From a virus: a stretch of DNA of 56,670 nucleotides. Each line of letters opens with the position of its first letter. Positions within the stretch are counted from its first letter, which is position 1. The notes beneath the pieces were generated by a model. That model was not told the DNA's origin and searched no databases. It was given only the letters and a program-made list of their open reading frames with translations. Below are positions 15,590 to 41,105 of the stretch, piece by piece. Where the stretch lies: positions 1 through 56,670 of the IMG/VR virus record IMGVR_UViG_3300042891_000430; one strand, 5' to 3'. Position numbers and translations under genes: made by a program.

Positions 15590-18500
15590 TTACTTCCCGG
15601 TGTTGTAGTAGTCGATGTCTTCGAGGATATACTGGTTCCGCTTGTTCGTGCGGATACCCTGCACGACAGTACCCTTCTTCTCTTCCGTTTGTCGACGCTT
15701 CTCAGAGGCACGAAGATCTTTCATGTCGATCTGTGCGTCCTTCGGTTTGCCACGATTGAACTTCTCAATCGCGATCATCGCCTTCGCACGGTTGTTAGGG
15801 TTAGACACCCAGTCATTCATGAGCTTCTGACGCTCTTTATTGTAGCGTGCAAGATCACCCTGAATGGCGCTGCGCTCTTCAAAGCGCTCTGCCTCGCGTG
15901 CAGGCGTGAAGCCGATAGCCCGCGTGACTTTCTCTTGCGTCGTGTAAGGAGTGAACGTCTGGCGACCAGCTTCGTTCTTGAGACCTTCCTTACTAACGCG
16001 ATCAGCTTTGAGATAATCAGAGAGCGCTTTGATCGGGATGGTAAGCTCAGCGGCTTTCTGCCAGTCACCGCTCATCGCTGCACGGAAGCCCTTAACAGCA
16101 TCGACAACGTATGCCGTAGGAGCACCGCCAACGAGCTTGGCGACGTACGCCCATGCCGCGTCTTCAGTATCGCCGCGCGGTTCGCCGAACAAGATTGTCG
16201 GGAAGCCGAGACGGTTAGATGTATCGACGCCAATCATGCGCGTGAGACCACGACTTGCGATCTCGCCACCTTCGTTGCCAAGCATACCAGCCATGTAGCG
16301 ACGGACCATGCGTTCGAAGTCGCTTGGCTTGAAGTCAGAGATGTTAAGTGCGTTCGCAAGCAACAGTGCGATCTTCGCCAACTCCATGCCGGGAAGCCCA
16401 AGCACGCCAGCCATAGCCGCGTAGCTTGCCGTATAGATAGCGAGAGCGCGAACAGCCTTAACGCGATCTCCGGGGCTTTCGTTGCGGATGGCGCGACCAA
16501 CTTGGCGTCCAACTGCGTGGATCGAACCCTGCAAGAACAGTTTGAACTGCAGAGGGAGGCGCAAGTACTTGTTGCGGAATGTTGGCGGTACGTTCGTCGG
16601 AGACGAATTGAACTGCGAGTTACTGACCACGTCCTGCGCGTAACGCATGGCCTTCTCGTGGTCACCGCCATTACGCTTCATCTCAAGACGATAAGCAGCA
16701 AGTGCGGTAACGGTACGGTTAACTGCTTCCACTGCACGGGGCAGAGCGCGTGCAACATTCGACAGGTAGTCGATACCCTTATCCGCACCAGCAACAACTT
16801 TGTCGCCGATTGTTTTACCACCGCGCTGGCGCTTGATAGCCGTCATGTCAAACCCGGCGTCAGGGTCGACGACACCACGATCAACGAGGAAGTCTAGAAG
16901 CTCCTGCTCCTTAGGAGACAGACGGGCCTTAACCTGCTCGATGTAAGGCGCGTTACCATCTTTGCCTATAACAGCTTTAACCGTTTCAGCAGCGCCGCGA
17001 CCGAGCAACCGTCCAGCCGAGACATCATTGTACGCTTTTACGATGTGGTAGGCAGAGCGTGCTGCACCGTGATCGCCACCAAGCTCAGCAAACGTGTACG
17101 TAATCTGCGTGAGGTTGGTCATGCTGTAGCCAAGCGACAGCAGTTTGTCCGCGTAGGACAAAGCGTTCACGCGGTCTACACCACGGCCAAACGAAGATGC
17201 TTCTTCGATAGCGTTAGAGCCGATGACACGGTTCTCAACTTCGTTAGCAAGACGGCGAGCCATCGTGCCGTTGCCGGTACCCAGTGCAGAGAGCTTTTCG
17301 GTACGGTCGTTAAGATCCTTCAGCGCCTTAGTCATCGCCTCTTGGAACTTCGTGCGGGCCATATAGCCTGCAGAGCGCTCCATATATTCGATGGTGTTAC
17401 GCACGAAGTCAGTCGACATACCCGCCACGTTACGGCGAGGCATCTGTGTGCTCTGAATACGGTTCGGACCCATCATAGTGATGGAAAACTCGTTCAGAAT
17501 ACCAGTGATCTCGTTGCGCTGAGTAGGTGTCAGCTTAGACGTACCGAGCCGCTGCTCAGCCGTCTCCATCAGGGAACGGATCTGGTTAGGCAGCAGGTCG
17601 CGCCACTGACCAGTCGTGAGGTTCTTACGATCCTCTGGGTCAGACATTGCCAGACCTTCATCACGCAACTCCTTGGTGCGGGACTTGGCTTCCGACAGGC
17701 TCTCGACAAACTCGGTATAGCGATCCTGCACGGTGACACGGAAGCGCTGCTCGCCATCAACGTCCTGCTTAGTGACCTTGATCTGCTCGCCCTTGTCGTC
17801 CGTGAAGAAGTCTTTACCCGTCTTAGGATCGATATAGACGCTCTCAAAGCTAGTGGGGAGAGACTGCTTACGCACCCACTCCTCAGCATCTTTGCGGTCC
17901 TTAAAGTCGAATGTGTTGTCGCGCACCTTAGTGGCGTTGGCCGGAGCTTCGATCTTGTATCGGCCATGGACAACGAAGTCGCCACGACGAGCGAAGTTAA
18001 AGTACGGGCCATCAAGACGGGCAGCGTCAACTACGTTCGCAATATGCTTGGCTAGGATCGGACCAACCGCATCGACATCTGCAGCCGTAGTTTTGCCATC
18101 CATGAAGCGCTGTGCCACTGCGGGATCATCGATATCCGCACCGCGAAGAACGGCATCGACGACTGTACGCAAACGCGCATCAAGCATCTTAGGCAGCATG
18201 TCACGGATCTTTGTATAGATCTGTGCCAGCTCTGGCGTCTTATCTGCAAGTGCCTTGAAGCGTTCGGCTAGCTGCGGATGCTGAGACTTGCCCCAGACAC
18301 CGGACATTTTGTCCTTACCAAGATGCTTGTTCTTGGGGTCTGCAAGGGGAACATCGGGATGCACTTGGGCGCGGGAAGCGTCGAGTGCAATCGCAACCAT
18401 TTCCTCAAAGCCGTTACCCTTGAACTTGTTGCTAGCTGCAGCGAGCTCAATGAGGTCAGCTTCGAAGTCAGTAAGGATTTTAGCCTTCTCTCTACCCTGC

Positions 18501-21500
18501 ATCTGTACAAGGTCAGAGATAGTGCGGAGCGGGTTAGTATCCTTCCCAAATATGCGGTCGCCCATCTGAGCGATTTCGTTCAAACGAGAAAGCGCAATAG
18601 TGGCTTTGGTAGGAGTTCTGTAACTCGCAGTCGGTACGAACATCGCTTCTGCGACGGTCGTAGCTTCCTTCTTAATCTCAGTCTCAGCCTTTGGCTTCGG
18701 CTGTTCGTTACTACCGAAGTTACTGGCGAGCTCATCGATAAAGGGCTTAGCGTTCTTAAAGTTGAAGTCGGCACCGAGCTCTTCTTTAAGTACGTTCACA
18801 AGCTCCGTTGCCGTCTCGCGATCAACGCCACGGCTCTCAAGCTCACGACGGATGCTAGCGTCGATACCACGACGAGCAGCGTAGTCTGGAACATTAACGT
18901 CGCGAACTTCGCGCGCGGCCATGGCACGCGCCATCTCTTCGGGCTTGAGTGCAGAGTATTTTGCACCGCGAGGAAGTGCCTCACGTTCTTCAAATGCACG
19001 GTCAGTATAGCGGATAGCTTCTTCAAGGGCCGAGCGTGTATTCGGCGTAGTGCCAAGCGTCTGACGGACGAGGTCGACCATCGCCTTGAACGTGTCACGC
19101 ACCCAGCCGCCAGCCGGGTTGATGTTCATAGCGCGGAGCTGTGCGTCAGAGATCTTGATCTCTGTGAGCAAGTCTTGGAAGTCAGGGTTGGACCAAGTCT
19201 CCGAGATAAACTCGTCAGCGTTCTTGAGGCCGTACCGAACATCAAGCGCTTCGTATGCTGCTTTGAGCTCGGGGTTGTTCTCAAGCTCGCTCTTCACAAA
19301 ATCGCGAAGGCTTTCGATCTGCTTAGCAAGAGCCTTGTTACGGCGGATAGCATTTGCCAGCACACCATGCAGCGCCTCATGGATAATGAGGTTGCGTCCT
19401 TCCCGCGTGCCGGGAACATAATAGTCCTCATGGATGAGGATATGGTTCTTGATCGGATCGTAAGCACCTGCAATGCGGTCGCTACGCCCAGTCAGGATAT
19501 TGGCGCGGCGCATTGTGTCGTTATCGACGACCATTACCTTCATGTCGCCAATGAGGCGCATGATACGGCTTTCGATAAAATCGCTTAACGCGTTACGAAC
19601 CTTCTTCTTGTCCCCAGTGAGTACGTTCTCAGCGAACATCTCACGGACAGTCGTTTCGCGGCTTGCGTAGATTGGCTCGTCTGAGATCTCGTTAATGAGA
19701 CGGCGGAACTCGCTTGTCTGCAAACGGCTGATCGGAAACTCAGCGTTGGCACGAACAGCGGCAAGGAACTCGCCCTTGTCAGAACGGACGATCCAATTCT
19801 TAAACTGGCTATCCGTCATGTTGTTCAGGCGTTCGGCAAGGCGAGCCTTCTCAGAACCACGCGACGAGTACTCAGCCTTCAGAAGATCATAGATGCTGAC
19901 TTCGCGACCAGTAAGTTTGGCGTAATTATCAGCCGCGTCTTCTGCGGCTTTGGCGCGGTTCTCGTCCAGAGAGATGTAGTTCTGCTGATCGTTAACGTCA
20001 GACTGACCGCCAGACTTATCACTCTTTTTGCTGTCGAGATGAAGACGTGCAATCTCTTCGAGCTGCTCCTTTGGAAGAGCAAGGAACGCATCCTTATCCT
20101 TCTGCCGCTTGAGCTGAGTTTCTACGATATCGTCAATGGCAGCTTTAACCTGCGCGTCAGTGTAGTCGCGCTTCTCCACCTCAGGAGGAGTTTCGGGTTC
20201 AGGAAGTTCTGCCTTAGCTGCAGCTTCTTCCTCTGCTACGCGACGACGTTCGATGGTCTCAAGATTAGCTTCATGTTCTTGCTGCCATGCAGCATCAATC
20301 TTTTTAGTGCGCTCAGTGTTTGCAGCCGAGCGGCCACGTGTCTGACCAGACTTCGCTTCAGCGGCGTCCTTGTAATACTGCGGTGCAGCATCTCCAGCGG
20401 TCTTAACGGCAGTGAGGGCGCGGCGCACAAATCGGTCGCGTGCTTTCGGGTTAGTCGTATCAGGGGCAACACCGAAGTCACGGTTGTCGCCTTCTGTAGT
20501 CAAGCGATAACCGCGCTGCGCGGCAGCGGCTTCGCGGGCAAGTTCTGCTTCCTGCTCAGCGCTACGAAGGATACGACGCGGCGGCTGCTCAGCCTTCGGC
20601 GGCGTTACTTCGGTAGTAACAGGAGCTTCCGACGCTGCTGCCTTTGGCTTTTCGGGAGCCTTAACGCGGCGGCGCACACGCTCAACGATTGGCCCAGTCT
20701 TGGGACCGGCACCGGCGGGAGGAGTTTCGACGCGCTCTGCTATGACTTCCTGCGGTGTGCGGACTTCGACAGTATCAGTAGGTGCAGCCTGTTCGGCTAC
20801 CTTGGCGATATCAGCGTTAACCGTCTCGCTGCTCGTCAGAGCATCAGTCTTCGGCGTACCAGCTTCATCACGAACTGTGATGGCTGCAGGCTCTGCGCCA
20901 CGCTCTTCGACGGCACGAACTGCTTCTGTCTTAGAAGTATCACCCATGCCAAGGGCTTCGTTAAGACGCCCCTTTTTATCAAGATCACGCAGAGCTTTGG
21001 CGGTAATCTTTTTGGGGTTGTAGTACGCACGAGTACCGCTCGGCAGCTTGATGGACTTCATACCTTCTGGCAGAGGAGGGATGCCATTCTGCACAAGTTG
21101 GCGATCTTCAAACGTCACACCTTCTGGGAACAAAACAGTAGAACGGCCAGCTTCAGGACTGACCATATCATTGACCTGAGCCTCAAACTGTTCGGGCTTC
21201 TCGGCAACAGTTGGTTCGCCCTGCGTGCGTTGTTCGATTGTAGGCTCAGGCTGGGTTGCTTCGATACCAGCTTTGATATTTTCGTCTTCGATCTGACGCT
21301 TTGTCTTACCTTCTGGCGGTGTCAGCGATAGCTCGCTGAAATCTAACCTGCCTGTGGTCCAATGGCTTTTACCGTTCTTGCTTGTATAGAAGCCAAACGA
21401 TGGACCAGTTGTGCCGTCAGAAAATACAGACCGCACAACGGTGCGCGGTAAGCGGCGTCTGCCAGAAAGGAAAGCACCAATCCCAGTCGCAGGTTCCTTG

Positions 21501-23020
21501 TGCTCGACTGTGAATGTGAGAACGCCATCCGGCGTATATAGCTTTGTTCCCTCGGGAAGCTTCTGCAGCGTCTCATACGCGGCACGTGGATACGCTTTTG
21601 TACCCTGCGCTTCAACAACATCAGAGAACGAGACGTCAGCGGGGGCAGGCTTAGCTTCTTCAGTAGTTTTAGCTGCGGCTTCCTCAGCCGCGCGCTGCTC
21701 TCTAACGCGGCGCACAAGCTCTTTAGCTCGCTCGTTAAGATCGTTCTTCGCTGCGGCCTCAACCGTCGGATCGATATCAGTTGTCGTTGCCGTACCAGCG
21801 TCAGGCTTTACTGCTTCTGCTACTGCCGGATCGACACCAGCGGGTGGGCGGGCAGCACGTTCTTCTGCACGGCGCTCGATGCGGCCAGCAACCTTTACAC
21901 CACCAAACGGGACACCGCTGAAGAACGCATTAACAGTAGCATCCGCGACCTTAGCTGCACGATGAACAAAGTCTTCGTTACCACCGAAGTAACCGGCCAG
22001 AAGCTCGGTCGTTGCAGCGCTAGCGAACCCGCCAACGGCAAACATGGCAGGATCGGCGACGGCCAGACGAGCAAGATCGCGTGTGAAGTTCTGTGTGAAC
22101 TTACCCGGATCGCCGATGTACTTAACCATCAAACCAGTGGCGAGACCGTTCACGGCACCGCCAATGAGTGAAATCCTACGGACGTCCTGCTGTGTTAGCT
22201 CGCCAGACTTGAGCTTGTCTTGGATGCCCTTGTCTTCGAGCAAAGCGTTGTACGTCGCACCGATACCTTGCACGGCACCAATGCCCACGCCTGTCGCGAC
22301 ACCGCCAAGCATGAAAGGAGCGAAGCCACCAAAGCCTTCGCCAAAACGCTCCATCAGGTATGTGCCGAAATCCCCGACACCCCTAACTTCGCTCAGGCTA
22401 TTGATCTCACCGCGAACCAGTTTGGCCTGACCTTCAGACCAATCAGCAAGATCTTTGGCCCAGTCCAGTTTGATCTCTTCGTTCGTCAGAAGTTCTGACA
22501 TCACGTTGAGACCACGTGCCGCTTCACCAATCGAACCAGCCATACCCTTAGCGGCAGACATGGTGAACGGTGCGACGAGCTTAGAAGCGAGCTGACCAGC
22601 TACGACGTTACCGCCAGCGGGGTCATAGAAGTCGCCCATAGCGTTACTAACGCCAAGGCCAACGTCACGAAACTGATCGCCTTCGTTACCAAGCCCTTGG
22701 TCACGCGGCTGCTCTTGGAAAACAGAACTGTCGCGCACACGCTCGGGCTCGGAGGCTGGCATGGGGGCATCGCGCATGATCGCAAGACCTGCGCTATCAC
22801 CCATCGGATCAGTGCCCATCAGCGGAGGCTCAACGCGCCCCGGTGCGGTCTCTTTCTCTGGCTCAGTCGAGCTAATATCACGCAGATATTGTTCGCCAGC
22901 CTTTAGAGCTTGGCCGACAAAACCCGGCTTCGGATTGTTTTCATCATAGAGAAACTGTTCGAAATCCAGTTTCTCATCCGCATTGCTTTTGAGAAACTGT
23001 TCGAAATCGAGCTCAGCCAT
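15590..23020 (-). CDS. giant internal virion protein with metallopeptidase-like motif, 2476 aa
   Basis: The ATG at 23020 shares a base with the preceding stop (TGATG). The N-terminus repeats LDFEQFL twice within 20 residues. A glycine/alanine-rich hydrophobic stretch follows (about 130-330), then long charged Pro/Ala/Glu linkers (about 380-1000). A zinc-peptidase-like HEALHG sits near residue 1213. The C-terminal third is helical, with features of large polyvalent proteins that podoviruses eject into the host (RNKYLRLPLQFKLF region near 2150). It is presumably packaged in the virion and ejected with DNA to build the envelope channel or act on host targets. Two GTTAC-N7-GTAAC dyads (20604, 21977) lie within it. 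Confidence 0.85.
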   Translation of the reverse strand: MAELDFEQFLKSNADEKLDFEQFLYDENNPKPGFVGQALKAGEQYLRDISSTEPEKETAPGRVEPPLMGTDPMGDSAGLAIMRDAPMPASEPERVRDSSVFQEQPRDQGLGNEGDQFRDVGLGVSNAMGDFYDPAGGNVVAGQLASKLVAPFTMSAAKGMAGSIGEAARGLNVMSELLTNEEIKLDWAKDLADWSEGQAKLVRGEINSLSEVRGVGDFGTYLMERFGEGFGGFAPFMLGGVATGVGIGAVQGIGATYNALLEDKGIQDKLKSGELTQQDVRRISLIGGAVNGLATGLMVKYIGDPGKFTQNFTRDLARLAVADPAMFAVGGFASAATTELLAGYFGGNEDFVHRAAKVADATVNAFFSGVPFGGVKVAGRIERRAEERAARPPAGVDPAVAEAVKPDAGTATTTDIDPTVEAAAKNDLNERAKELVRRVREQRAAEEAAAKTTEEAKPAPADVSFSDVVEAQGTKAYPRAAYETLQKLPEGTKLYTPDGVLTFTVEHKEPATGIGAFLSGRRRLPRTVVRSVFSDGTTGPSFGFYTSKNGKSHWTTGRLDFSELSLTPPEGKTKRQIEDENIKAGIEATQPEPTIEQRTQGEPTVAEKPEQFEAQVNDMVSPEAGRSTVLFPEGVTFEDRQLVQNGIPPLPEGMKSIKLPSGTRAYYNPKKITAKALRDLDKKGRLNEALGMGDTSKTEAVRAVEERGAEPAAITVRDEAGTPKTDALTSSETVNADIAKVAEQAAPTDTVEVRTPQEVIAERVETPPAGAGPKTGPIVERVRRRVKAPEKPKAAASEAPVTTEVTPPKAEQPPRRILRSAEQEAELAREAAAAQRGYRLTTEGDNRDFGVAPDTTNPKARDRFVRRALTAVKTAGDAAPQYYKDAAEAKSGQTRGRSAANTERTKKIDAAWQQEHEANLETIERRRVAEEEAAAKAELPEPETPPEVEKRDYTDAQVKAAIDDIVETQLKRQKDKDAFLALPKEQLEEIARLHLDSKKSDKSGGQSDVNDQQNYISLDENRAKAAEDAADNYAKLTGREVSIYDLLKAEYSSRGSEKARLAERLNNMTDSQFKNWIVRSDKGEFLAAVRANAEFPISRLQTSEFRRLINEISDEPIYASRETTVREMFAENVLTGDKKKVRNALSDFIESRIMRLIGDMKVMVVDNDTMRRANILTGRSDRIAGAYDPIKNHILIHEDYYVPGTREGRNLIIHEALHGVLANAIRRNKALAKQIESLRDFVKSELENNPELKAAYEALDVRYGLKNADEFISETWSNPDFQDLLTEIKISDAQLRAMNINPAGGWVRDTFKAMVDLVRQTLGTTPNTRSALEEAIRYTDRAFEEREALPRGAKYSALKPEEMARAMAAREVRDVNVPDYAARRGIDASIRRELESRGVDRETATELVNVLKEELGADFNFKNAKPFIDELASNFGSNEQPKPKAETEIKKEATTVAEAMFVPTASYRTPTKATIALSRLNEIAQMGDRIFGKDTNPLRTISDLVQMQGREKAKILTDFEADLIELAAASNKFKGNGFEEMVAIALDASRAQVHPDVPLADPKNKHLGKDKMSGVWGKSQHPQLAERFKALADKTPELAQIYTKIRDMLPKMLDARLRTVVDAVLRGADIDDPAVAQRFMDGKTTAADVDAVGPILAKHIANVVDAARLDGPYFNFARRGDFVVHGRYKIEAPANATKVRDNTFDFKDRKDAEEWVRKQSLPTSFESVYIDPKTGKDFFTDDKGEQIKVTKQDVDGEQRFRVTVQDRYTEFVESLSEAKSRTKELRDEGLAMSDPEDRKNLTTGQWRDLLPNQIRSLMETAEQRLGTSKLTPTQRNEITGILNEFSITMMGPNRIQSTQMPRRNVAGMSTDFVRNTIEYMERSAGYMARTKFQEAMTKALKDLNDRTEKLSALGTGNGTMARRLANEVENRVIGSNAIEEASSFGRGVDRVNALSYADKLLSLGYSMTNLTQITYTFAELGGDHGAARSAYHIVKAYNDVSAGRLLGRGAAETVKAVIGKDGNAPYIEQVKARLSPKEQELLDFLVDRGVVDPDAGFDMTAIKRQRGGKTIGDKVVAGADKGIDYLSNVARALPRAVEAVNRTVTALAAYRLEMKRNGGDHEKAMRYAQDVVSNSQFNSSPTNVPPTFRNKYLRLPLQFKLFLQGSIHAVGRQVGRAIRNESPGDRVKAVRALAIYTASYAAMAGVLGLPGMELAKIALLLANALNISDFKPSDFERMVRRYMAGMLGNEGGEIASRGLTRMIGVDTSNRLGFPTILFGEPRGDTEDAAWAYVAKLVGGAPTAYVVDAVKGFRAAMSGDWQKAAELTIPIKALSDYLKADRVSKEGLKNEAGRQTFTPYTTQEKVTRAIGFTPAREAERFEERSAIQGDLARYNKERQKLMNDWVSNPNNRAKAMIAIEKFNRGKPKDAQIDMKDLRASEKRRQTEEKKGTVVQGIRTNKRNQYILEDIDYYNTGK
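20604..20620. repeat. GTTACT-N5-AGTAAC dyad
   Basis: 6-bp perfect arms around TCGGT, inside the giant virion-protein gene; same spacer as the copy at 32045. Confidence 0.75.
21977..21993. repeat. GTTAC-N7-GTAAC dyad
   Basis: 5-bp arms in the giant virion-protein gene, in a different codon frame from the copy at 20604. Confidence 0.65.
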
Positions 23021-25053
23021 CACAGTCCCTCAGTCGAAAATCCGTTTTCTTTCAGGTAGTTTAGCATATCCTGACGTCTAGCTGGGTTCTCTTTTAGGAC
23101 ACGCTTAGCTTCTTTCATATCTTCTGCGGAGAGAGGAGAAGGACCACGGTCACGAACTGACTTCTGCACGCCCATGATCTGGCGTGCCGTCGCACCATCA
23201 ACGATCACAGGGCGGTTGTCACCAATACGCAGACGACCTGAACTGTCGAAACGTACAGGCGTGTTTGGGTCGACAGCTTCATTCATCAAACGAGCCACTT
23301 GGCCCTTAGTCATCTCGTTCTTCTGGCCAATGACAACGGCAGCATCTTGGATGCGGCCAATGTCTTTTTTCGGTAAGCGCTTGGCAAGCATAGTCGGAGC
23401 TTCTGGAGTACCAGCAATAGCTTCTTCGTACTCTTTGTAGACATCGTTGAGCTTCTCGCCCTTGACCGAAAGGTTCGTCGTGTTCTCCGAACGGATATCG
23501 GCCTTCGTCGATCCAAGCTGACCAGTCGTCATGCTCTCAACAAAGCGGCCACGAGCGCGTGCCGGGGCAGTAGCCTCAGAACGTGCATCGCCTTGGACGA
23601 CCGGGATCGCTTCGCCAGTGTCGACATCCTTGTCAGACAGCATATCGACGTAACCACGGGTAGTAACCGCACGGGTCATTTTATCGACGTCGACCGCTTC
23701 GCTAGCCTTAGCCTTTGCTGAACCGCTGGGAGACAATGGTGTCACGCCAAGACCGCGCAATGCGTAAGCTACGCCAGTATCAGAGCGCTTCTTAGCTGGG
23801 ATATTCTGACGTACACCAGCAACGATCTTGCCGTAAACTTCGGTAGCCTTGTCCTCAATCCGCGCACGCTCTTCCTCCGTCTCAGCGGCAGCGTGTTGGC
23901 GTTTGAGGATGTTATGCTCCTTAATCAGAGCGGTAGTATCAATAGCTTCAGTGGCTGGAGCTGTTGCACCGGCCTTAGCCTGAGGCTTCGCACCAATCCC
24001 ACGCGCTTTGGCTTGCGCTGCAACCTGACCGAGCTGTTGTGTGAACGCCTGACCGCTTCTGAGTTGCTGCGCCATCTGGGCAAGCTGCGGCGGTGTAGCG
24101 TTAATCTCTTCCTGAGTGACGTTACCCTTAACGATCTTAGCTTTAACTGCCCCATCGGGGCCGACGGTGAAGTCTTCACCCTCAGTCGCAACTGCCGGAC
24201 GGATCTGCATCGGGCCCGGAAGATCGTAATTGTAGGCGTCGGCGATCAACTTAGCTGCAGAGCGAACGTCACCGTCTTCGAGTGCCTGTGTGGCAAGCAT
24301 ACCGCGCGTCTGCGAGTTAGCCTTGTTGTACATAAGAAGGCCATTGGCAGCGGCGGCACCCTTATCGGGTTCGCCCTTCTTATCATAGTACTCGTACATC
24401 GCTGCGATACGCGCCGCGCTCTTGGCTTCCTCAGGAAGCACATTGTCGGGATCGATGATCTGATCGAGGGCTGCAATTTGGTCCTTAGTGAACGCGCCCT
24501 TGTTCTGGGCGAACGCGCGATACTTGTCTTCGCCGCCGTCGACAGCCACAGCTTCGTTACTAGCCGTGAGGTTCTGGACCATGTTCTTAACACCGGCATC
24601 CACGCCGGGAGACGCAAGCTCGAACATCTTGTCTGCTACGTCGAACTGCTCAGTATTAGTGGGAGCGGCTTCATCTGACGGCGTAGTAGCATCGTCAACA
24701 GCGCGCTTTATGCTCGAACCTACGAGACCGCCAGTCGCGTAAAGTTCAGACGTGCCTGCCCCAATGTTGGGGTCCATCTTGTTGTAGTTAATGATGTCTT
24801 CGTCGAGCTTATTTAGTGTGTTGATGTCGCCAGCGCGGAACGCGCGACCGCGAGCACCAAGCAGGCTCTTCGCACCAGCTTCGAAATCAGACAACGAACT
24901 ATCTTCGTCTTCGTCACTACCATAACCGTAATGGCGCTTTGAAGCACCACTACGGGCCTTGAGGTAGGCTTTGCGGTACTCGCTATCGTCCATCATCTTC
25001 CAGCCAGACTGCAGGCCAGCGGTGAACTCTTTAAGCTCTTGAGCGAAACCCAT
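23020..25053 (-). CDS. putative internal virion protein, 677 aa
   Basis: The protein is largely helical and Ala/Lys/Glu-rich, without membrane segments or recognised catalytic motifs. It lies between two other probable internal virion genes, overlapping the giant-protein start at its 3' end and the 364-aa gene's stop at its 5' end. By position it is likely ejected or held in the capsid with those proteins. No family can be named from sequence alone. Confidence 0.8.
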   Translation of the reverse strand: MGFAQELKEFTAGLQSGWKMMDDSEYRKAYLKARSGASKRHYGYGSDEDEDSSLSDFEAGAKSLLGARGRAFRAGDINTLNKLDEDIINYNKMDPNIGAGTSELYATGGLVGSSIKRAVDDATTPSDEAAPTNTEQFDVADKMFELASPGVDAGVKNMVQNLTASNEAVAVDGGEDKYRAFAQNKGAFTKDQIAALDQIIDPDNVLPEEAKSAARIAAMYEYYDKKGEPDKGAAAANGLLMYNKANSQTRGMLATQALEDGDVRSAAKLIADAYNYDLPGPMQIRPAVATEGEDFTVGPDGAVKAKIVKGNVTQEEINATPPQLAQMAQQLRSGQAFTQQLGQVAAQAKARGIGAKPQAKAGATAPATEAIDTTALIKEHNILKRQHAAAETEEERARIEDKATEVYGKIVAGVRQNIPAKKRSDTGVAYALRGLGVTPLSPSGSAKAKASEAVDVDKMTRAVTTRGYVDMLSDKDVDTGEAIPVVQGDARSEATAPARARGRFVESMTTGQLGSTKADIRSENTTNLSVKGEKLNDVYKEYEEAIAGTPEAPTMLAKRLPKKDIGRIQDAAVVIGQKNEMTKGQVARLMNEAVDPNTPVRFDSSGRLRIGDNRPVIVDGATARQIMGVQKSVRDRGPSPLSAEDMKEAKRVLKENPARRQDMLNYLKENGFSTEGL

Positions 25054-34050: not shown

Positions 34051-34818
34051 TTAAGCGCCCTCTTCCTTGAGCATCTGGTATCGCCAATACCATATAGCGA
34101 CCGCCATAACGACAATGGCTATAGCGATCCAAAAGCTTGGCGAACGCACCAAGGCTGTCAAAATCCCGACACTGTCGTGCGTAGTGGACGCCGCTGAGAC
34201 CGCTTGGTTGAACTGGCTCGCAGCCTCAAGACCGCCAGCAATCCCTACGCCGACGGAGGTGTTGGCGATGCGGGACTTCGTAATCGGCTTCGGAGGCTGC
34301 GGTACGTCGACCGGTGTGGCAGCAGATGCCACGCGATTAGTCTTGATCTCCCGCCATAGAGCCACTTCAGCGCGACGGCGATTAACAAGTCCCGGAAGAA
34401 CCTTCCCATTGTCGTTCACCCACTTCATGAACTCAGCGGGAACCTGATCGAATTTCTTAGCGTTAACACGCTTGAGCAGAGTAGAGCGAGCGAAGGCCCC
34501 CCTGCCGACATTGAACGTGAAAGAAACCAGAGCGTCAAATTGCTCTTGGGTGAGGTCGACCGTGACAAGTTCTGACACCTGCTGGGCAACTGCCGTAACG
34601 TCCCTATCGAAGATATTCTCGCCTTCAGCCTTAGTGATAACCATCCCGGCTTCTGGGATCGGATCACCGGCAGCGGCGGTATGACCGTATCCAATAGTTA
34701 ACATCCCGATAACAGGCCCGCCCTTGTAATGCTTCTTTGGCTTGGCGTCGTCATAGCAGTAGGGGATGAAGGTCTCCCAGCTCTTGATGAGCTTGCGACC
34801 CTTTGGTCCTACGTTCAT
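34051..34818 (-). CDS. endolysin: GH24 lysozyme with C-terminal membrane segment
   Basis: The ATG at 34818 overlaps the preceding stop (ATGA) with GGAG nine bases upstream; the in-frame ATG at 34833 is less likely. The T4-lysozyme-type catalytic Glu15 (KSWETF) is followed by LTIGYGHT and FDALVSFTFNVG, so it should cut peptidoglycan glycan strands. At the C-terminus a linker (about 165-220) leads to a strong transmembrane helix (FWIAIAIVVMAVAIWYW) and a short charged tail. The enzyme may be membrane-tethered until release. Confidence 0.92.
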   Translation of the reverse strand: MNVGPKGRKLIKSWETFIPYCYDDAKPKKHYKGGPVIGMLTIGYGHTAAAGDPIPEAGMVITKAEGENIFDRDVTAVAQQVSELVTVDLTQEQFDALVSFTFNVGRGAFARSTLLKRVNAKKFDQVPAEFMKWVNDNGKVLPGLVNRRRAEVALWREIKTNRVASAATPVDVPQPPKPITKSRIANTSVGVGIAGGLEAASQFNQAVSAASTTHDSVGILTALVRSPSFWIAIAIVVMAVAIWYWRYQMLKEEGA

Positions 34819-35033
34819 CGTGGAAGGCTCCATAAATAACTAAGTACTTTGGTGGCAGCGATTGTAATGGCTGATGCTGCACCGCCAACCATAACCATGA
34901 CCTTCCACCCGCCTCTGGCCTGATGCAAGATCTGAAGCATCTCATTCTGGTTCTTAATAAGTGTCGCAACATCCCGCTCCAAGCGGTCGATCTTGGCTTC
35001 AAAGTTACCGACTGTGCGCTGGATGTCGTCCAT
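34815..35033 (-). CDS. putative holin (coiled coil plus one membrane helix)
   Basis: 72 residues: an N-terminal coiled-coil helix (FEAKIDRLERDVATLIKNQNEMLQ region) and one C-terminal membrane segment (about 45-66). The layout resembles XhlA-type holin or holin-associated proteins. It is directly upstream of and coupled to the lysozyme gene, which supports the role. Confidence 0.7.
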   Translation of the reverse strand: MDDIQRTVGNFEAKIDRLERDVATLIKNQNEMLQILHQARGGWKVMVMVGGAASAITIAATKVLSYLWSLPR

Positions 35034-35039
35034 GGTTGG

Positions 35040-35330
35040 TCACCGGGCTGTCAAGTTGTATGAGATGGTATTAACTTCGGTGTCGCCTTTAGAGGTCAGC
35101 GCCCTTATTTCGACATCGTACTGTACATTGGCTTCGCCACCAGAGACATAGAAAACTACAAGTTTGCCATCGACGAGATGGTACTCGTCGACATCGAACT
35201 GGTTTTGTGTCTGAGGAGTTACTACGAAAGTAACCTCTTCAACGAGCTCATCGTCATCGAGCCATATACTATAGTCGATGTTGTAGCGTTTCCGCTCGGT
35301 CGGTCTCTTGAAGTATCTTCCTAAGAGCAT
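35040..35330 (-). CDS. small beta-sandwich-type phage protein, 96 aa
   Basis: The ATG at 35330 has GGAG eight bases upstream; an ATG at 35354 would extend it further into the bilin reductase gene. The product begins MLLGRYFKRPTERKRY and then has alternating strands (VEEVTFVVTP, LVVFYVSGG, VQYDVEIRAL), like short Ig-like phage tail accessory proteins. It overlaps the bilin reductase end by 10 bases and contains a dyad. Confidence 0.75.
   Translation of the reverse strand: MLLGRYFKRPTERKRYNIDYSIWLDDDELVEEVTFVVTPQTQNQFDVDEYHLVDGKLVVFYVSGGEANVQYDVEIRALTSKGDTEVNTISYNLTAR
35218..35234. repeat. GTTACT-N5-AGTAAC dyad
   Basis: 6-bp perfect arms around ACGAA in the gene next to the bilin reductase. 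Confidence 0.75.
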
Positions 35331-35980
35331 GGCGGCAACTCCGGGAATAGGCATGTCTGGATGAAGTCATGCACTGTCTCTTCGTCAAAGCCAAGAGACA
35401 TCATGACCTTAGGCGTATGCGGGTTGCACTTTTGGTTGCGACAATACCTATTCTGAGCGTCGGTATACTCGCCACTTATAGCACCTATGCTATTGAGGTG
35501 GTAGTTCAGGGTGTCGTCTACTAAGTCTAAAACTGTCTTCAGTTCGGCTTGATCTGAGATGTTACCTGCAGCGACCATGCTTGAGCTAAATATCTCGCGC
35601 GCCCAATCTGGTAAAGATCTCTCCTTACTCCACTCAAGACCTTTGACCCGGTTAGAGAACCACTCAAGCATCGGGCTATTGGGGTCTATGGGGCTGAAAT
35701 CGTGGAAGGCTCCGGTGACTTTGTTTGGTCCTGCGATCAGGTCAAAGCCAAAAATGGGCGAGCCGTCAGTAGTGTGTGGGAACACCGTCAGGTGCATCAT
35801 GTAGAGCTTCTTCGTGTCCCGCACGTCGACGACGTCGAGATGGGCGCGACGGAAGGTATCCGCACGCCAGACACAGTTAAGCCATGGGTATCTGTGGCCT
35901 TCGTCTACTGGTTCGTAAGACGAGAAGCGTGCGATGATTTGATCTTTAAGGGCGTCAAGATGCGCGAATGTCGTGGGCAT
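35321..35980 (-). CDS. ferredoxin-dependent bilin reductase (PcyA/PcyX/PebS family)
   Basis: The 219-residue protein shows the family core: RRAHLDV, MHLTVFPHT, SPIFGFDLIAGPNKV and DFSP, then YCRNQKCNPHT and CLFP near the C-terminus. Against Synechocystis PcyA (Glu76, His88, Asp105), the matching residues are Asp49, His63 and Asp80. Family members reduce biliverdin with electrons from ferredoxin to phycocyanobilin or phycoerythrobilin. Keeping His and Asp while replacing Glu points to a PcyX-like rather than PcyA enzyme; which bilin is made cannot be told from sequence. GAGG lies six bases before the ATG, inside the heme oxygenase gene (26-base overlap). No phage ferredoxin was seen. Confidence 0.92.
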   Translation of the reverse strand: MPTTFAHLDALKDQIIARFSSYEPVDEGHRYPWLNCVWRADTFRRAHLDVVDVRDTKKLYMMHLTVFPHTTDGSPIFGFDLIAGPNKVTGAFHDFSPIDPNSPMLEWFSNRVKGLEWSKERSLPDWAREIFSSSMVAAGNISDQAELKTVLDLVDDTLNYHLNSIGAISGEYTDAQNRYCRNQKCNPHTPKVMMSLGFDEETVHDFIQTCLFPELPPCS

Positions 35981-36491
35981 CCGACACCTCGTCGAACAGT
36001 CTTAAGGCGAAGTCAAAGACCCGGTTCGCCTCTTCTCCAAGCTCGTCAGATAGTTTCTCACGAACCTTCTTCACCAGCTCTGCACGATCCTTAAAGTCGT
36101 ACATGGTGCATGAGCCGGGAGCGACCTTCTTGATGATCTGCCCGCCATAAAGGTCTGCGAAGTGCCGTCCGTATACATGAGCCCAGAGATAGTCCGGCTT
36201 CACCCAGTCGAGGTAGCGGATATACTCTCTGGTTGATGGGTATATGTCAGACACACGCTCTAGTTCGTAAAAATCGCGCCAGATGTGCTGTGACCTGTAC
36301 AGGTCTTCGATACCATCAAACATGCCATGCTGGTAAATCTTCTGCTCAAGCGCTTCGTAACAAGTCGCTTGGTTGGCAAGGAAGTCCGCATAGATTTTGT
36401 CCGGCATTTCGCCGGACAATAGAAGCACAACAAAGCGGTGGTGTTCCGCCTTGTCATGCTTCTCTTTGATAGCGTCCCGAAGGCTCATCAT
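35955..36491 (-). CDS. biliverdin-forming heme oxygenase
   Basis: The 178-residue protein matches the heme oxygenase fold: LRDAIKEKHDKAEHHRF with the proximal heme ligand His12, and a distal-helix motif YGRHFADLYGGQIIKK (about 107-122) equivalent to the Gly-rich kinked helix of HO-1 (RYLGDLSGGQ). It would open heme to biliverdin, releasing iron and CO, and supply the adjacent bilin reductase. Its ATG overlaps the upstream stop (ATGA) and no Shine-Dalgarno sequence is evident, so translation is probably coupled. Usual length is about 200-240; this one is compact, as in phages. Confidence 0.92.
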   Translation of the reverse strand: MMSLRDAIKEKHDKAEHHRFVVLLLSGEMPDKIYADFLANQATCYEALEQKIYQHGMFDGIEDLYRSQHIWRDFYELERVSDIYPSTREYIRYLDWVKPDYLWAHVYGRHFADLYGGQIIKKVAPGSCTMYDFKDRAELVKKVREKLSDELGEEANRVFDFALRLFDEVSDAHDIRAS

Positions 36492-36745
36492 GCAGCCGGG
36501 AGGGAAGGGGGTGCCGGAAGGCCGAGTTCTTCCGCTAGAGCAACCGCTGCGGCGTGCTCAATCTCTTGCACTTGGCGGTCGGTTTTACCGGCATATCGGT
36601 CCTTAACGCTGTCTGTTGCAGCGTCATAGTAGAACCTATGCTGCAACTGGTTAGAGTTAGGAGCTTCATAGGCCCCATCATCTGTCACAACCAGAACTGG
36701 GTTGTTAGCCAAATCGCCGAGGACATTGAATTTAAGTTTTGCCAT
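36488..36745 (-). CDS. hypothetical protein, 85 aa
   Basis: Small protein starting MAKLKFNVLGDLANNP with an acidic helical C-terminus (VQEIEHAAAVALAEELG) and a Pro/Ala end. No cysteine, so no covalent bilin attachment is expected. It is directly upstream of and coupled to heme oxygenase and follows an adhesin-like gene; it could be a fibre accessory or a partner of the bilin genes. No family recognised. Confidence 0.7.
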   Translation of the reverse strand: MAKLKFNVLGDLANNPVLVVTDDGAYEAPNSNQLQHRFYYDAATDSVKDRYAGKTDRQVQEIEHAAAVALAEELGLPAPPSLPAA

Positions 36746-36755
36746 TTCTCAGACC

Positions 36756-38177
36756 TCAGTACGGAAGGTTAGATTGGAAGTCGAACTCAGAAACGTGAGT
36801 AAGACCCGGATAGTTAGTTGTATTTGGGCCCGGTGCTGACGGGAAATACACAGTAGTTGTGAATACATCTGGAGATCCACCAGCCGTCAGCGACGGTGAA
36901 GCATATCCAAAGATGTAAGCTGCCGTGTAGTTAGAAGCGTAGAAATTCCCGTTTTCAATAAACGCAAACTGGTTGTTGCGATATTTAACAGGATAAGAAC
37001 CAGAGGTAGTGTTGTTGCTAGTTGGCGAAGAGATCCACGAGCTATTGCGTTTGTCGATAACCCACCCACGCATACCACACTGGTAGTAGTAATAGACTGC
37101 CCAAGCGCAAACCATGCTACCATCACGTGTCTGCATTTGGCGCTGACCGTATGCCTCGCCCTGATCCACCCCATAAGATGTCGTCATGCTTTGCGAGCCA
37201 ACAAGTGTATTTGACAGAGAAGCATCGCCTGTGGCGCGAGTTATCTTCCACAAATAATAGTTATTGCTATTCTCGTTAAACGAGCTGACGAAGATAGAAC
37301 CATCATCGACGAGAACCCATTTTGAGTTAAAACGCCCTTCGTTGGTGTTTACCCAAGATGCAAGAGTTGTATTAAGCAGTACGTCAGGGTTGCCAAGCGT
37401 TGCCACGTTACCCACTACAGCGTCAAAATCAAAGTTCTTCCAGATACCGATATTGACACGACCGCTAGTCGTAGACGTAAAGCAAGCGACCATAAGTTCT
37501 TTACGAACGGCGTTATAGGACGCGGAGCCGTACATAGACGTAATCTGGCTACCGCCATCATACGTCGTAAAGATGCTTGCTAAATTCTTCTTAGGACGCG
37601 GGAACGGATCAGTAGCCGTGACAGCGTAAGGAACTGGTGTCTGCTCTGGACTAACAGTAAGCCACCCAGATGAAAACTGCATAGTCAGCTTCTTATTGGC
37701 GTGGTCGCTATTAACAAAAGCTCTATTAGCGCGGACTGGTGCGGTTGCAGTCTGTGTTAAGAAGCGGAGAGACGATGACATAATAATGCCACGCTCAGAA
37801 GCCCAAGCAGCAGCTTGACCGTATTCGCCCATACTCGCGGTACCGCAAAGTGGGAGCGAATACGATGATGTTGACATAGCTGTTTGTGTATTTGGTCCCA
37901 TGCTAGCGTTGTACATTTGCCCAGCATTTTGGACATATGTTGTATTCTGGTTCTCAAGATCGTTAGTAAACCCTGCAGCGTAATTCTGGCCGATTAAGTT
38001 CGCCGCTGCCCCGATACGCCGAAACTCACCGTCGTAGAATACTGCTCCGCAAAACGTTGACGACGTGTTGAACGACATCATTGCATACGATGCGCGCGGC
38101 ATAGCTTGCCCTGACATCGTATTGAAAGCGCCGATTGTGTTCTGGGTACCAGAAGTGACTTGCGAAAGGAAAGCCAT
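36756..38177 (-). CDS. putative adhesin / tail-associated protein, 473 aa
   Basis: A Ser/Thr/Asn/Tyr-rich, beta-patterned protein with many aromatic residues (YYYYQCGMRGW), no signal peptide and no enzymatic motif. Composition and location after the long fibre gene fit a receptor-binding or virion-surface protein. It resembles the unnamed beta-rich proteins of marine phages; exact family not recognised. Confidence 0.7.
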   Translation of the reverse strand: MAFLSQVTSGTQNTIGAFNTMSGQAMPRASYAMMSFNTSSTFCGAVFYDGEFRRIGAAANLIGQNYAAGFTNDLENQNTTYVQNAGQMYNASMGPNTQTAMSTSSYSLPLCGTASMGEYGQAAAWASERGIIMSSSLRFLTQTATAPVRANRAFVNSDHANKKLTMQFSSGWLTVSPEQTPVPYAVTATDPFPRPKKNLASIFTTYDGGSQITSMYGSASYNAVRKELMVACFTSTTSGRVNIGIWKNFDFDAVVGNVATLGNPDVLLNTTLASWVNTNEGRFNSKWVLVDDGSIFVSSFNENSNNYYLWKITRATGDASLSNTLVGSQSMTTSYGVDQGEAYGQRQMQTRDGSMVCAWAVYYYYQCGMRGWVIDKRNSSWISSPTSNNTTSGSYPVKYRNNQFAFIENGNFYASNYTAAYIFGYASPSLTAGGSPDVFTTTVYFPSAPGPNTTNYPGLTHVSEFDFQSNLPY

Positions 38178-38192
38178 CGTTATTTCTCCGTG

Positions 38193-41105
38193 TTAGACCA
38201 GACGCCAGCCGTAGGTGGCCCCAGAATAAGTCAGTTCGATAGATGCGTTTTGGACATCGAGGAATAGGTCTTCACTAAGACCCATAATCTTCAGTCCATT
38301 TCGTGCGACACGCAGATTGAATTGTTGGAACGTGCCAGCTAGATCCGCGATCTTCACGCGCGCATTAAGCGAAGGCGATGCCGGGAGTGTTACCGTGAAC
38401 GGACCAGATGTCGTATTGCAGAAGAGGAAATCTCCAGAGACCGCCGTGTAGTTTGCGGTTTTGGTATTCCACGATCCGCCGACGCTAGCGAGACCCGTAT
38501 CAACATAAGTCTTAACCGCGTACTCAGTAGGCACCGCCGTGTTGGAGTTACCCGACAGTGTAGCGTCCGACGAGAACTCGTTGATGGTCTCGCCGAGCTG
38601 CGCACCAATCGAACCCAGTCGCAGCGAGGTCAGACCGGCGAGGTCGAACGCGCTGGCGTTAAGAGTTGCACGGCCCGTTGCTTGGTCGATGCGGAAGTAC
38701 TCGCCAACTCGGAAGTTACCATCTTGGTCGGTCGAGACGTAGAACACGCGACCGGGGAAAGCTTCATCCGTCTCATTACCCTGCGCTGCCGGTTGTGTCG
38801 GCTCTCCCGGATAATTGGTTGTCGAAACACCGCCCGTGCCAATCGACAAGAAGTCGTGACCGGTAAGGCGGATTTGCGAGTACTTCGAGCGAAGCGTAAC
38901 AACCGCACCGCTGGCAGAACCTGACGGCTTTTCTTGTGCCAGAACAACCGTGATGATGCTGCTGGCGTTGGTCCAAGTACCCGTGACGCTCTGCACCACA
39001 TAGGCAAACGTGTCGCCAGTAATCTGGATCGACTGACCGGGCTTCGGCAGTGCGGTGAGGTTATTCATCACCAGCACGAAGCCCTTCTGATTTTCCAGAG
39101 CGCCGTTCGAAACCGTCCCTGTGCCGCCACCTGTAAAGGTCAGCGCCTGACCGCTTGTGAACGTACCGGTCGCATCGCGGACGTACACCTTGTTAGCAGT
39201 CGTCTGGACATTGGTCACAGTCGCCGAACCGGTCGCCGAAGTGACCGTATCTCCGACGTTGATATTGCCACCACCGTACAAGAAGTTGAGCTGCTGGCCG
39301 AGCAACGCACCTGTTACTGGGGTTTCGCCAGCGTCAAAGCCACGCGACGTTGCACCCCAAGTGCCATAGCTATTGTTACCGTTGAGTGCGCGGATGAAGC
39401 CGCCACCCGACGCGGTATAGCCAAAGTAGCAGTAGTAGGTGAAACAGGAGACGATTTCAGCCTTACCGCCGTCCTTCACCCAGTAGCCGATACCGTTGTC
39501 GTTGATGACGGTGTAACCGTGGAAGATCATTGTCTTCGCACCGGTCGCATGGACCGTGCCGTCGATCAGAGCGCCAATCGCACCGGAACCGATAAACGCG
39601 CACTCCAGAACGTAGGGCGACTTATGGGTAATCGGCGAAGCCGGATTGAACCCAACGACCACACCTTTAATCGTCGAAGTTGTGACGTCGGCGGCTGTTG
39701 TGCCCGGAACCCAACCGGTCATACCAGTAAACGTCATCTTGTTCAGGATTGAGCCATTGCTCATCTGGAACATAGTCGACTGGTTGTTTGGAGTTACGCC
39801 ATCATCGCTCAAACCAGCCTTAGGCTGCACGATGACGGTACGTTGATTATCACCAACAATGGCGACGTTAGCCGGGACAACAATCGGAAGCTGCTCCGAA
39901 TAAGTACCAGTTTTGACAAAGATGGTTGAGCCAGTCGGAGCCTGTTGGCAAGCATACTTGATCGACGCAAACGGATAGGCTTGGTTCTTACCAGCCGTAG
40001 TCGCGTCTACACCGTGCGGAGCAACCCAGAAAACCTTGTCTGAAGCTGTTGCACCAATCCAATCAATCGTCGATCCGTCAGCAGAAACAGTAAGCGAGCG
40101 ACCATTATCACCAGAGACAATAGCCGGAAGAACGTCTGCGCCACCGAGAACAAACGCTGCCCACTTACTAGCTGTAAGGTCGGTATTAAAGTCAGCGGCA
40201 GAGGTGTGATCTATAGTCGCGATGTAAGCCGAACCGACAGCATCCTTCACAACATCATCGCGAAGGTATGATGTGGCAGTCGCCCATGCACCGCGCCAGC
40301 GGATGCCGCTGTTAAACTTCACCCACTTATTAGCAGCGAGGTCCGTCTCGAACGTAGTTGAAGCATTACGAACAACACAGATGTACGAGTTACCGCCGTG
40401 GTTAACCACGTCGTTAATGTAGTATTCTGTAGCTGTCGTCCACGCTCCGCGCGAACGGATGCCTTCATTGAACAACTGCCAATAAGCAGAGTTCAGAACG
40501 CCCGTGCTATTGATAGGGAGCTGATTAGTGTTGTTGGCCGTAGCTTTGTAAATGTTCGCGCCATAAGCTACGACATCGCCGGGGACGTAGGCAGTTGCAG
40601 AAGACCAGATACCGGCAGCGGAAATACCCTCGACAAACCGATCCCAGAAGGTCGTGTTGGTCGGCAGATTGCCCGAGGTGTCCTGCTTGGCGATGTACGC
40701 CGACGCGCCGTACTGAACAACGTCGTTCTTCTGGTACTGTGTAGCTCCGCTATAAGCACCTTCGTACTGAATACCATCCGCGAACTGCGACCAGTAAGTC
40801 GCGTTCGGCGGGGTGTTACCCGTCGTGTCCTTAATCGCGATGTAAACTTTACCGCCGTGAGCAACGCCGTCGCCGACTTTGTAAGCTGTGCCAGAGGCGT
40901 AGGCACCCTTGAACTTGATACCCTCAACCATCAGAGCCCAGTAATCAGTCTCTGTCGGCAGGTGTCCTGACGTCTTCAGCCCGTAGGTATAGACGTAGAC
41001 GTTACCGCCGTACTTAACGATGTCATTCGTTTCGTAAACGGTGCTCGAAGACCAGTCGCCGCTGAAGCTGAAGCGGAGCTTCCCAAGGTCAATCAAAGTT
41101 GTCAT
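38193..41105 (-). CDS. long tail fibre with six sugar-binding-like repeats, 970 aa
   Basis: Residues of about 16-325 hold six repeats of about 50 aa with the pattern G-W/Y-xxxT-x-Y-xxxD-V-xx-G-x-x-Y, resembling carbohydrate-binding modules of the chitin-binding type. A parallel beta-helix-like section follows (VFWVAPHGVDATTAGKN... with FASIKYACQQAPTGS), a style shared with cyanophage and marine-phage fibres. The C-terminus has a NEFSSDATLSGNSNTAVPTEYAVKTYV-like segment and a small end domain. It is the main candidate receptor-binding fibre. Confidence 0.82.
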   Translation of the reverse strand: MTTLIDLGKLRFSFSGDWSSSTVYETNDIVKYGGNVYVYTYGLKTSGHLPTETDYWALMVEGIKFKGAYASGTAYKVGDGVAHGGKVYIAIKDTTGNTPPNATYWSQFADGIQYEGAYSGATQYQKNDVVQYGASAYIAKQDTSGNLPTNTTFWDRFVEGISAAGIWSSATAYVPGDVVAYGANIYKATANNTNQLPINSTGVLNSAYWQLFNEGIRSRGAWTTATEYYINDVVNHGGNSYICVVRNASTTFETDLAANKWVKFNSGIRWRGAWATATSYLRDDVVKDAVGSAYIATIDHTSAADFNTDLTASKWAAFVLGGADVLPAIVSGDNGRSLTVSADGSTIDWIGATASDKVFWVAPHGVDATTAGKNQAYPFASIKYACQQAPTGSTIFVKTGTYSEQLPIVVPANVAIVGDNQRTVIVQPKAGLSDDGVTPNNQSTMFQMSNGSILNKMTFTGMTGWVPGTTAADVTTSTIKGVVVGFNPASPITHKSPYVLECAFIGSGAIGALIDGTVHATGAKTMIFHGYTVINDNGIGYWVKDGGKAEIVSCFTYYCYFGYTASGGGFIRALNGNNSYGTWGATSRGFDAGETPVTGALLGQQLNFLYGGGNINVGDTVTSATGSATVTNVQTTANKVYVRDATGTFTSGQALTFTGGGTGTVSNGALENQKGFVLVMNNLTALPKPGQSIQITGDTFAYVVQSVTGTWTNASSIITVVLAQEKPSGSASGAVVTLRSKYSQIRLTGHDFLSIGTGGVSTTNYPGEPTQPAAQGNETDEAFPGRVFYVSTDQDGNFRVGEYFRIDQATGRATLNASAFDLAGLTSLRLGSIGAQLGETINEFSSDATLSGNSNTAVPTEYAVKTYVDTGLASVGGSWNTKTANYTAVSGDFLFCNTTSGPFTVTLPASPSLNARVKIADLAGTFQQFNLRVARNGLKIMGLSEDLFLDVQNASIELTYSGATYGWRLV

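Follow-up and report, generated by a model that had tools for sequence, protein, structure and literature searches.

A heme oxygenase and a PcyX-type bilin reductase encoded in the tail module of a short-tailed phage related to Rhizobium phages

Gene pairs for heme oxygenase (HO) and ferredoxin-dependent bilin reductase (FDBR) were first described from cyanophages, with PebS and PcyA as the reductases. Pairs in other phages have also been published, including PcyX from a marine viral metagenome (PcyX_EBK42635; Ledermann 2016, 2018, as cited in PMC11480375), the pair of Pelagibacter phage Mosig EXVC030M (MT647606), and those of freshwater phage CB_2 and other contigs (PMC11480375); the novelty that the original prediction saw in an HO-FDBR pair of a non-cyanophage had thus been anticipated. 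The product of PcyX is phycoerythrobilin, and Asp55 is a PcyX-specific residue, a phage FDBR without it yielding phycocyanobilin (PMC11480375). That study left as an open question what heme-to-bilin genes do for phages whose hosts are non-photosynthetic bacteria.

The window analyzed here is the whole 56,670-nucleotide stretch of IMG/VR virus record IMGVR_UViG_3300042891_000430 (positions 1 to 56,670). Two overlapping genes were located on the minus strand at 35321-36491, exactly where they had been predicted, encoding an HO of 178 aa (35955..36491) and an FDBR of 219 aa (35321..35980) with an overlap of 26 nt. Both proteins exceeded the curated cut-offs of their Pfam families: the HO matched Heme_oxygenase (PF01126; E=1.4e-17, 64.6 bits, cut-off 23) and the FDBR matched Fe_bilin_red (PF05996; E=1e-20, 74.8 bits, cut-off 31). 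Among PDB entries, the HO matched HO-1 and HO-2 structures (top E ~9e-12). Foldseek searches agreed with the assignments, as the AlphaFold model of the HO (pLDDT 95.6) retrieved heme oxygenases and that of the FDBR (pLDDT 90.4) retrieved PcyA, PcyX, PebA, PebB, and PebS. The two-step route from heme via biliverdin to a phycobilin, as originally proposed, is supported. A separate IMG/VR record from a different metagenome (L002) contained both genes and both flanks identical to those of the window, and two further records (L003 and L004) had a pair 97-98% identical to it, followed by the same genes downstream; an assembly artefact was dismissed on these grounds, the cassette having been found again across four virus records. 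Comparison with L003 gave dN/dS values of 0.079 for the FDBR and 0.157 for the HO, indicating purifying selection.

Judged by its sequence, the window FDBR is of the PcyX kind, as opposed to PcyA or PebS. Its top PDB match was PcyX_EBK42635 (5owg) with an E-value of 4.5e-53, whereas PcyA reached only 2.3e-14. Asp49, His63, and Asp80, the residues singled out in the original prediction, were invariant across a 30-sequence alignment, and the same D/H/D pattern was common to all 65 viral rows and 5owg. Position 49 corresponds to PcyA Glu76; it was Asp in 65/65 viral rows as well as in 5owg, whereas each of the five PcyA references (that of Synechocystis and four from cyanophages) had Glu there. 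Equating Asp49 with PcyX Asp55 depends on an inferred 8-residue numbering offset for the 5owg chain. His63 and Asp80 keep PcyA His88 and Asp105. In a tree of 72 sequences, covering neither alphaproteobacterial (AX) PcyA (e.g. that of Bradyrhizobium ORS278) nor CB_2 PcyA, the window FDBR fell inside the PcyX clade with PcyX_5owg and Mosig. The five PcyA references formed their own group, split off with support of 100/96, and PebS was distant, although the deep branching order is unsure owing to long branches. Phycoerythrobilin is accordingly the product expected from the PcyX-like identity.

The cassette lies within a one-strand gene row in the order tail fibre, 473-aa protein, 85-aa protein, HO, FDBR, gp77 adaptor, 72-aa protein, and lysozyme. 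The module carrying it begins with the tail fibre gene (38193..41105, minus strand; phrog_9851, E=3e-213), homologs of which stand upstream of cassettes in other phages. The following gene (36756..38177, minus) had no Pfam or PHROG match, and from its position between fibre and cassette its 473-aa product is probably a tail or receptor-binding protein. Overlaps of 4, 26, and 34 nt run along the next four genes, since the 85-aa protein gene (36488..36745, minus) overlaps the HO start, and the start of the podophage fibre-tail adaptor gp77 gene (PF23148; 35040..35354, minus) overlaps the FDBR end and forms the downstream cassette edge. Further downstream in the same block, a phage lysozyme (endolysin) is encoded (34051..34833, minus; PF00959, E=9.3e-40). 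In L003 and L004, the gene before HO encodes a tail-assembly chaperone (PF16778). Membership in this tail/lysis block suggests, on gene order only, that the cassette would be expressed late; a promoter/terminator scan around it gave counts no higher than chance. No 2OG-Fe(II) oxygenase gene was seen beside the window cassette, no 5-ALA synthase (AlaS; TIGR01821) was found in the window, and ferredoxin was encoded neither in the window nor in 26 longer records. Iron carriage by the tail fibre ("Ferrojan horse") was considered and gained no support from the His-x-His motif, other iron sites lying beyond that result, as no such motif was present in the fibre (38193-41105) or in cassette-adjacent homologs, except one in Mosig. 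Elsewhere in the window, the C-terminal part of a 2477-aa protein (15590-23023) matched DarB-like antirestriction proteins (phrog_10089, E=1.5e-31).

The backbone is that of a podovirus-type, short-tailed phage. The closest isolates were Rhizobium phages RHph_TM27A and its kin, with identities of 61-65% for portal, 67% for capsid, 59% for terminase, and 46% for DNA polymerase, followed by HMO-2011-type phages of Roseobacter, SAR116, and SAR11. Neither HO nor FDBR was found in RHph_TM27A. Homologs of the gp77 adaptor occur without the cassette in RHph_TM27A (37%) and in L103 (39%), a contig whose capsid is 85% identical to that of the window. None of 80 capsid relatives fetched from viral contigs carried HO or FDBR, although many of the loci do not extend across the cassette site and about 10 reach the gp77 adaptor. 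Because RHph_TM27A and capsid relatives such as L103 lack both genes, we regard the cassette as accessory in this lineage. The nearest isolates uphold the alphaproteobacterial look of the gene content noted originally, and an alphaproteobacterial host is likely, not proven, on this sequence relatedness. Portal homologs were found in 1/385 genomes of Alphaproteobacteria (27% identity) and in 7/369 of Gammaproteobacteria (26-39%), and as they also occur in the latter they do not decide the host class. FDBR was found in three of the 385 sampled Alphaproteobacteria genomes: a PcyX-bearing metagenome-assembled genome (MAG), one with two distant FDBRs, and one below the cut-off.

Relatives were encoded on 109 viral contigs at the threshold used. 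HO was near FDBR in 80/80 fetched loci, and the two genes overlapped or were at most 20 nt apart in 78/86. Three contexts recurred around the pair. In podovirus-type loci, a homologous tail fibre was present, in many cases with a tail-assembly chaperone and 2OG-Fe(II) oxygenases. In T4-like phages such as Mosig, the pair was placed between tail genes and neck genes. In phages of larger size, with records of up to 280 kb, genes for Hsp70, Hsp20, and ClpS were found, mostly directly before HO. The cassette had Hsp70/DnaK (E=6e-258), Hsp20 (E=2e-19), and ClpS adaptor (E=3e-26) genes as neighbours in 43/87 loci, including four MAG contigs. Hsp70/DnaK, Hsp20, ClpS, HO, and FDBR form a one-strand row at L035:6646-10603 and in about 40 further loci (L039-L081); no published description of this cluster was found among open-licence papers, and chaperones, ClpS, and tail fibres go unmentioned in the main text of PMC11480375. 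Genes for 2OG-Fe(II) oxygenases adjoined the pair or lay between HO and FDBR in L007, L008, L013, L031, and others. A gene between HO and FDBR was seen at L007:3413-5173 and L031:8881-10648, the L007 member of its cluster being a 2OG-Fe(II) oxygenase (PF13640). 5-ALA synthase (TIGR01821) was detected only in seven large-phage records; no podovirus or T4-like record that was tested encoded it, and the records may be fragments. Among bacteria, PcyX occurred on five MAG contigs, four of them with the same surrounding genes as the large-phage loci and thus probably phage sequence; none was found on plasmids. A search for pmoC, which had no responding control, gave no match in the large phages.

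Several individual loci were distinctive. Downstream of their cassette, the large phages have CsgF (PF10614) and a weak curlin-repeat match (PF07012, just below the cut-off), at 12278-12754 and 14306-15121 in L035; curli/T8SS genes are known from pelagiphages (PMC9599517). Two HO-FDBR cassettes in opposite orientation were present on one phage contig (L076:9363-10600 and 16728-17976). At L022:9408-9945, HO is split into two overlapping ORFs, by a frameshift or a sequencing error, and the FDBR is intact. T4-like phages have a gene for a Nol-like carbamoyltransferase (phrog_1601) near their cassette (L034:6558-8375).

The active site of the window HO is largely kept. Both features named in the original prediction recurred throughout the alignment, the proximal His12 (HO-1 His25) in 60/60 rows with a letter and the distal Gly-Gly (Gly116-Gly117; HO-1 G143-G144) in 62/62; Arg109 (R136) and Asp113 (D140) are also kept. 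At the position of HO-1 Gly139, where canonical HO has Gly, the window HO has Ala112, and family profile and fold still match; Gly was present in 60 of the 62 rows and Ala in two, those of window/L002 and L003. Replacement of Gly139 in human HO-1 was reported to produce a peroxidase (Liu et al. 2000; Lad et al. 2005; both as cited in PMC5542595). By analogy, heme cleavage by the window HO may be weak. The confinement of Ala112 to these rows, together with the human HO-1 literature, would fit a drifted HO with poor oxygenase or with heme peroxidase activity, leaving the FDBR to use mainly host-made biliverdin; we consider this quite unlikely, because purifying selection on the HO persists, the other active-site residues named above are kept, and the fold is predicted with confidence. 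The selection argues that the HO is functional in some sense.

Taken together, we hold with good confidence that the cassette consists of an HO and a PcyX-type FDBR with phycoerythrobilin as the predicted product in a short-tailed phage setting, a judgment that covers enzyme identity, product, and setting jointly and leaves the benefit aside. In the proposed mechanism, HO would open host heme to biliverdin IXalpha, Fe(II), and CO, and the FDBR would reduce biliverdin with four electrons, supplied presumably by host ferredoxin, to 15,16-dihydrobiliverdin and then to phycoerythrobilin. The benefit would be host heme turnover late in infection, with iron freed and biliverdin removed, and not pigment or light signalling. 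Within the HO-PcyX reading, we mildly and tentatively favour heme/iron turnover as the most likely benefit, because the pairs of relatives adjoin Fe(II)-dependent oxygenases and ferrochelatase and because infection by one pelagiphage is reported to raise host iron-uptake genes (PMC12753301); the same oxygenase-ferrochelatase pairing is reported for pelagiphages (PMC9599517). Turnover for iron does not explain the reduction of biliverdin to phycoerythrobilin. Heme degradation would be motivated without any iron need if the cassette served stress protection, removing free heme from respiratory-protein turnover and providing a bilin antioxidant, so that cell and phage proteins are shielded until lysis. 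Given the chaperone genes in about half of the loci, this comes close behind and is nearly as likely, while in itself still doubtful: the window cassette has no flanking chaperone genes of the Hsp70/Hsp20/ClpS kind, podovirus and T4-like cassettes adjoin tail genes instead, and no redox genes lie near the cassette.

Interference with light sensing, in which host bacteriophytochromes end up locked or chromophore-free through phycoerythrobilin or the loss of biliverdin, appears improbable. Bacteriophytochromes are present in many rhizobia, and the nearest isolates of the window phage are Rhizobium phages. However, the late structural/lysis position, away from early takeover genes, is poorly suited to signalling, and Mosig, the known isolate with the pair, infects SAR11, in which we know of no phytochromes. 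The PcyX route does pass through 15,16-dihydrobiliverdin, a bilin in which the C15=C16 double bond is missing (PMC11480375; PMC13193486), and a phage HO with PcyA supplied chromophore for a functional phytochrome in E. coli (PMC11480375). That phage phycoerythrobilin actually strips biliverdin from, or locks, the bacteriophytochromes of a non-photosynthetic host, an idea drawn from chemistry alone, is more doubtful still. Pigment supply for phycobilisomes of a cyanobacterial host, as suggested by the cyanophage origin of the first described pairs, is scarcely credible. The FDBR clade leaves out cyanophage PcyA and PebS, and for the structural and replication genes the matches are to phages of Rhizobium, Roseobacter, SAR116, and SAR11 instead of cyanophages. 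The cyanophage auxiliary gene set was not recovered: in keeping with the lack of photosystem genes noted originally, psbA (PF00124) was absent from the window and from 26/26 longer records, and the window backbone is of Rhizobium-phage/HMO-2011 type.

With the window, the phages concerned gain a short-tailed lineage that has close kin growing on Rhizobium, a culturable host, and whose cassette-free relatives are available for comparison with the cassette-bearing phage. The same pair recurs in a podoviral tail module, in the tail/neck region of T4-like phages alongside Fe(II)-dioxygenases, and beside DnaK-Hsp20-ClpS. With the lineage, the cassette-free relatives, and these three neighbourhoods, experiments can tell the iron, stress, and light-signalling readings apart. 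If the bacteriophytochrome reading were true, it would amount to viral control of light sensing in a heterotroph host.

Compared with known systems, the window FDBR shares with PcyX_EBK42635 its family, the Asp at the PcyA Glu76 position, the His/Asp pair, and an adjacent HO; the two differ in that the amino-acid sequence is well diverged and the window represents a podovirus of Rhizobium-phage type. Mosig has the same gene order, overlap, and upstream tail fibre and likewise a non-cyanobacterial host (SAR11), with 47% identity to the window for the FDBR and 34% for the HO. In contrast, it is a T4-like myovirus and carries neck genes downstream where the window has the gp77 adaptor, and its HO-PcyX pair is closely preceded by genes for four 2OG-Fe(II) oxygenases and a ferrochelatase. 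The vHemO-vPcyA/X-valaS cassette of CB_2 likewise combines a phage HO and FDBR with a proposed alphaproteobacterial host, and its enzyme activity is proven; its FDBR lacks PcyX Asp55 and makes phycocyanobilin, whereas the window FDBR has Asp, and CB_2 encodes a 5-ALA synthase (PMC11480375) that the window lacks, so that the three-gene hemO-pcyA/X-valaS arrangement does not apply here. Cyanophage PcyA and PebS share the phage-encoded FDBR fold and function class and have cyanobacterial hosts; PcyA is 23-30% identical to the window FDBR with Glu instead of Asp, and PebS is a distant branch. RHph_TM27A and its kin resemble the window in backbone without the cassette. Against these systems, three features are new: the HO-PcyX pair in a podovirus lineage with Rhizobium-phage kin, a link not found in the literature surveyed; a natural Gly139-to-Ala change in a phage HO; and three recurrent gene contexts, including DnaK-Hsp20-ClpS-HO-FDBR in large phages.
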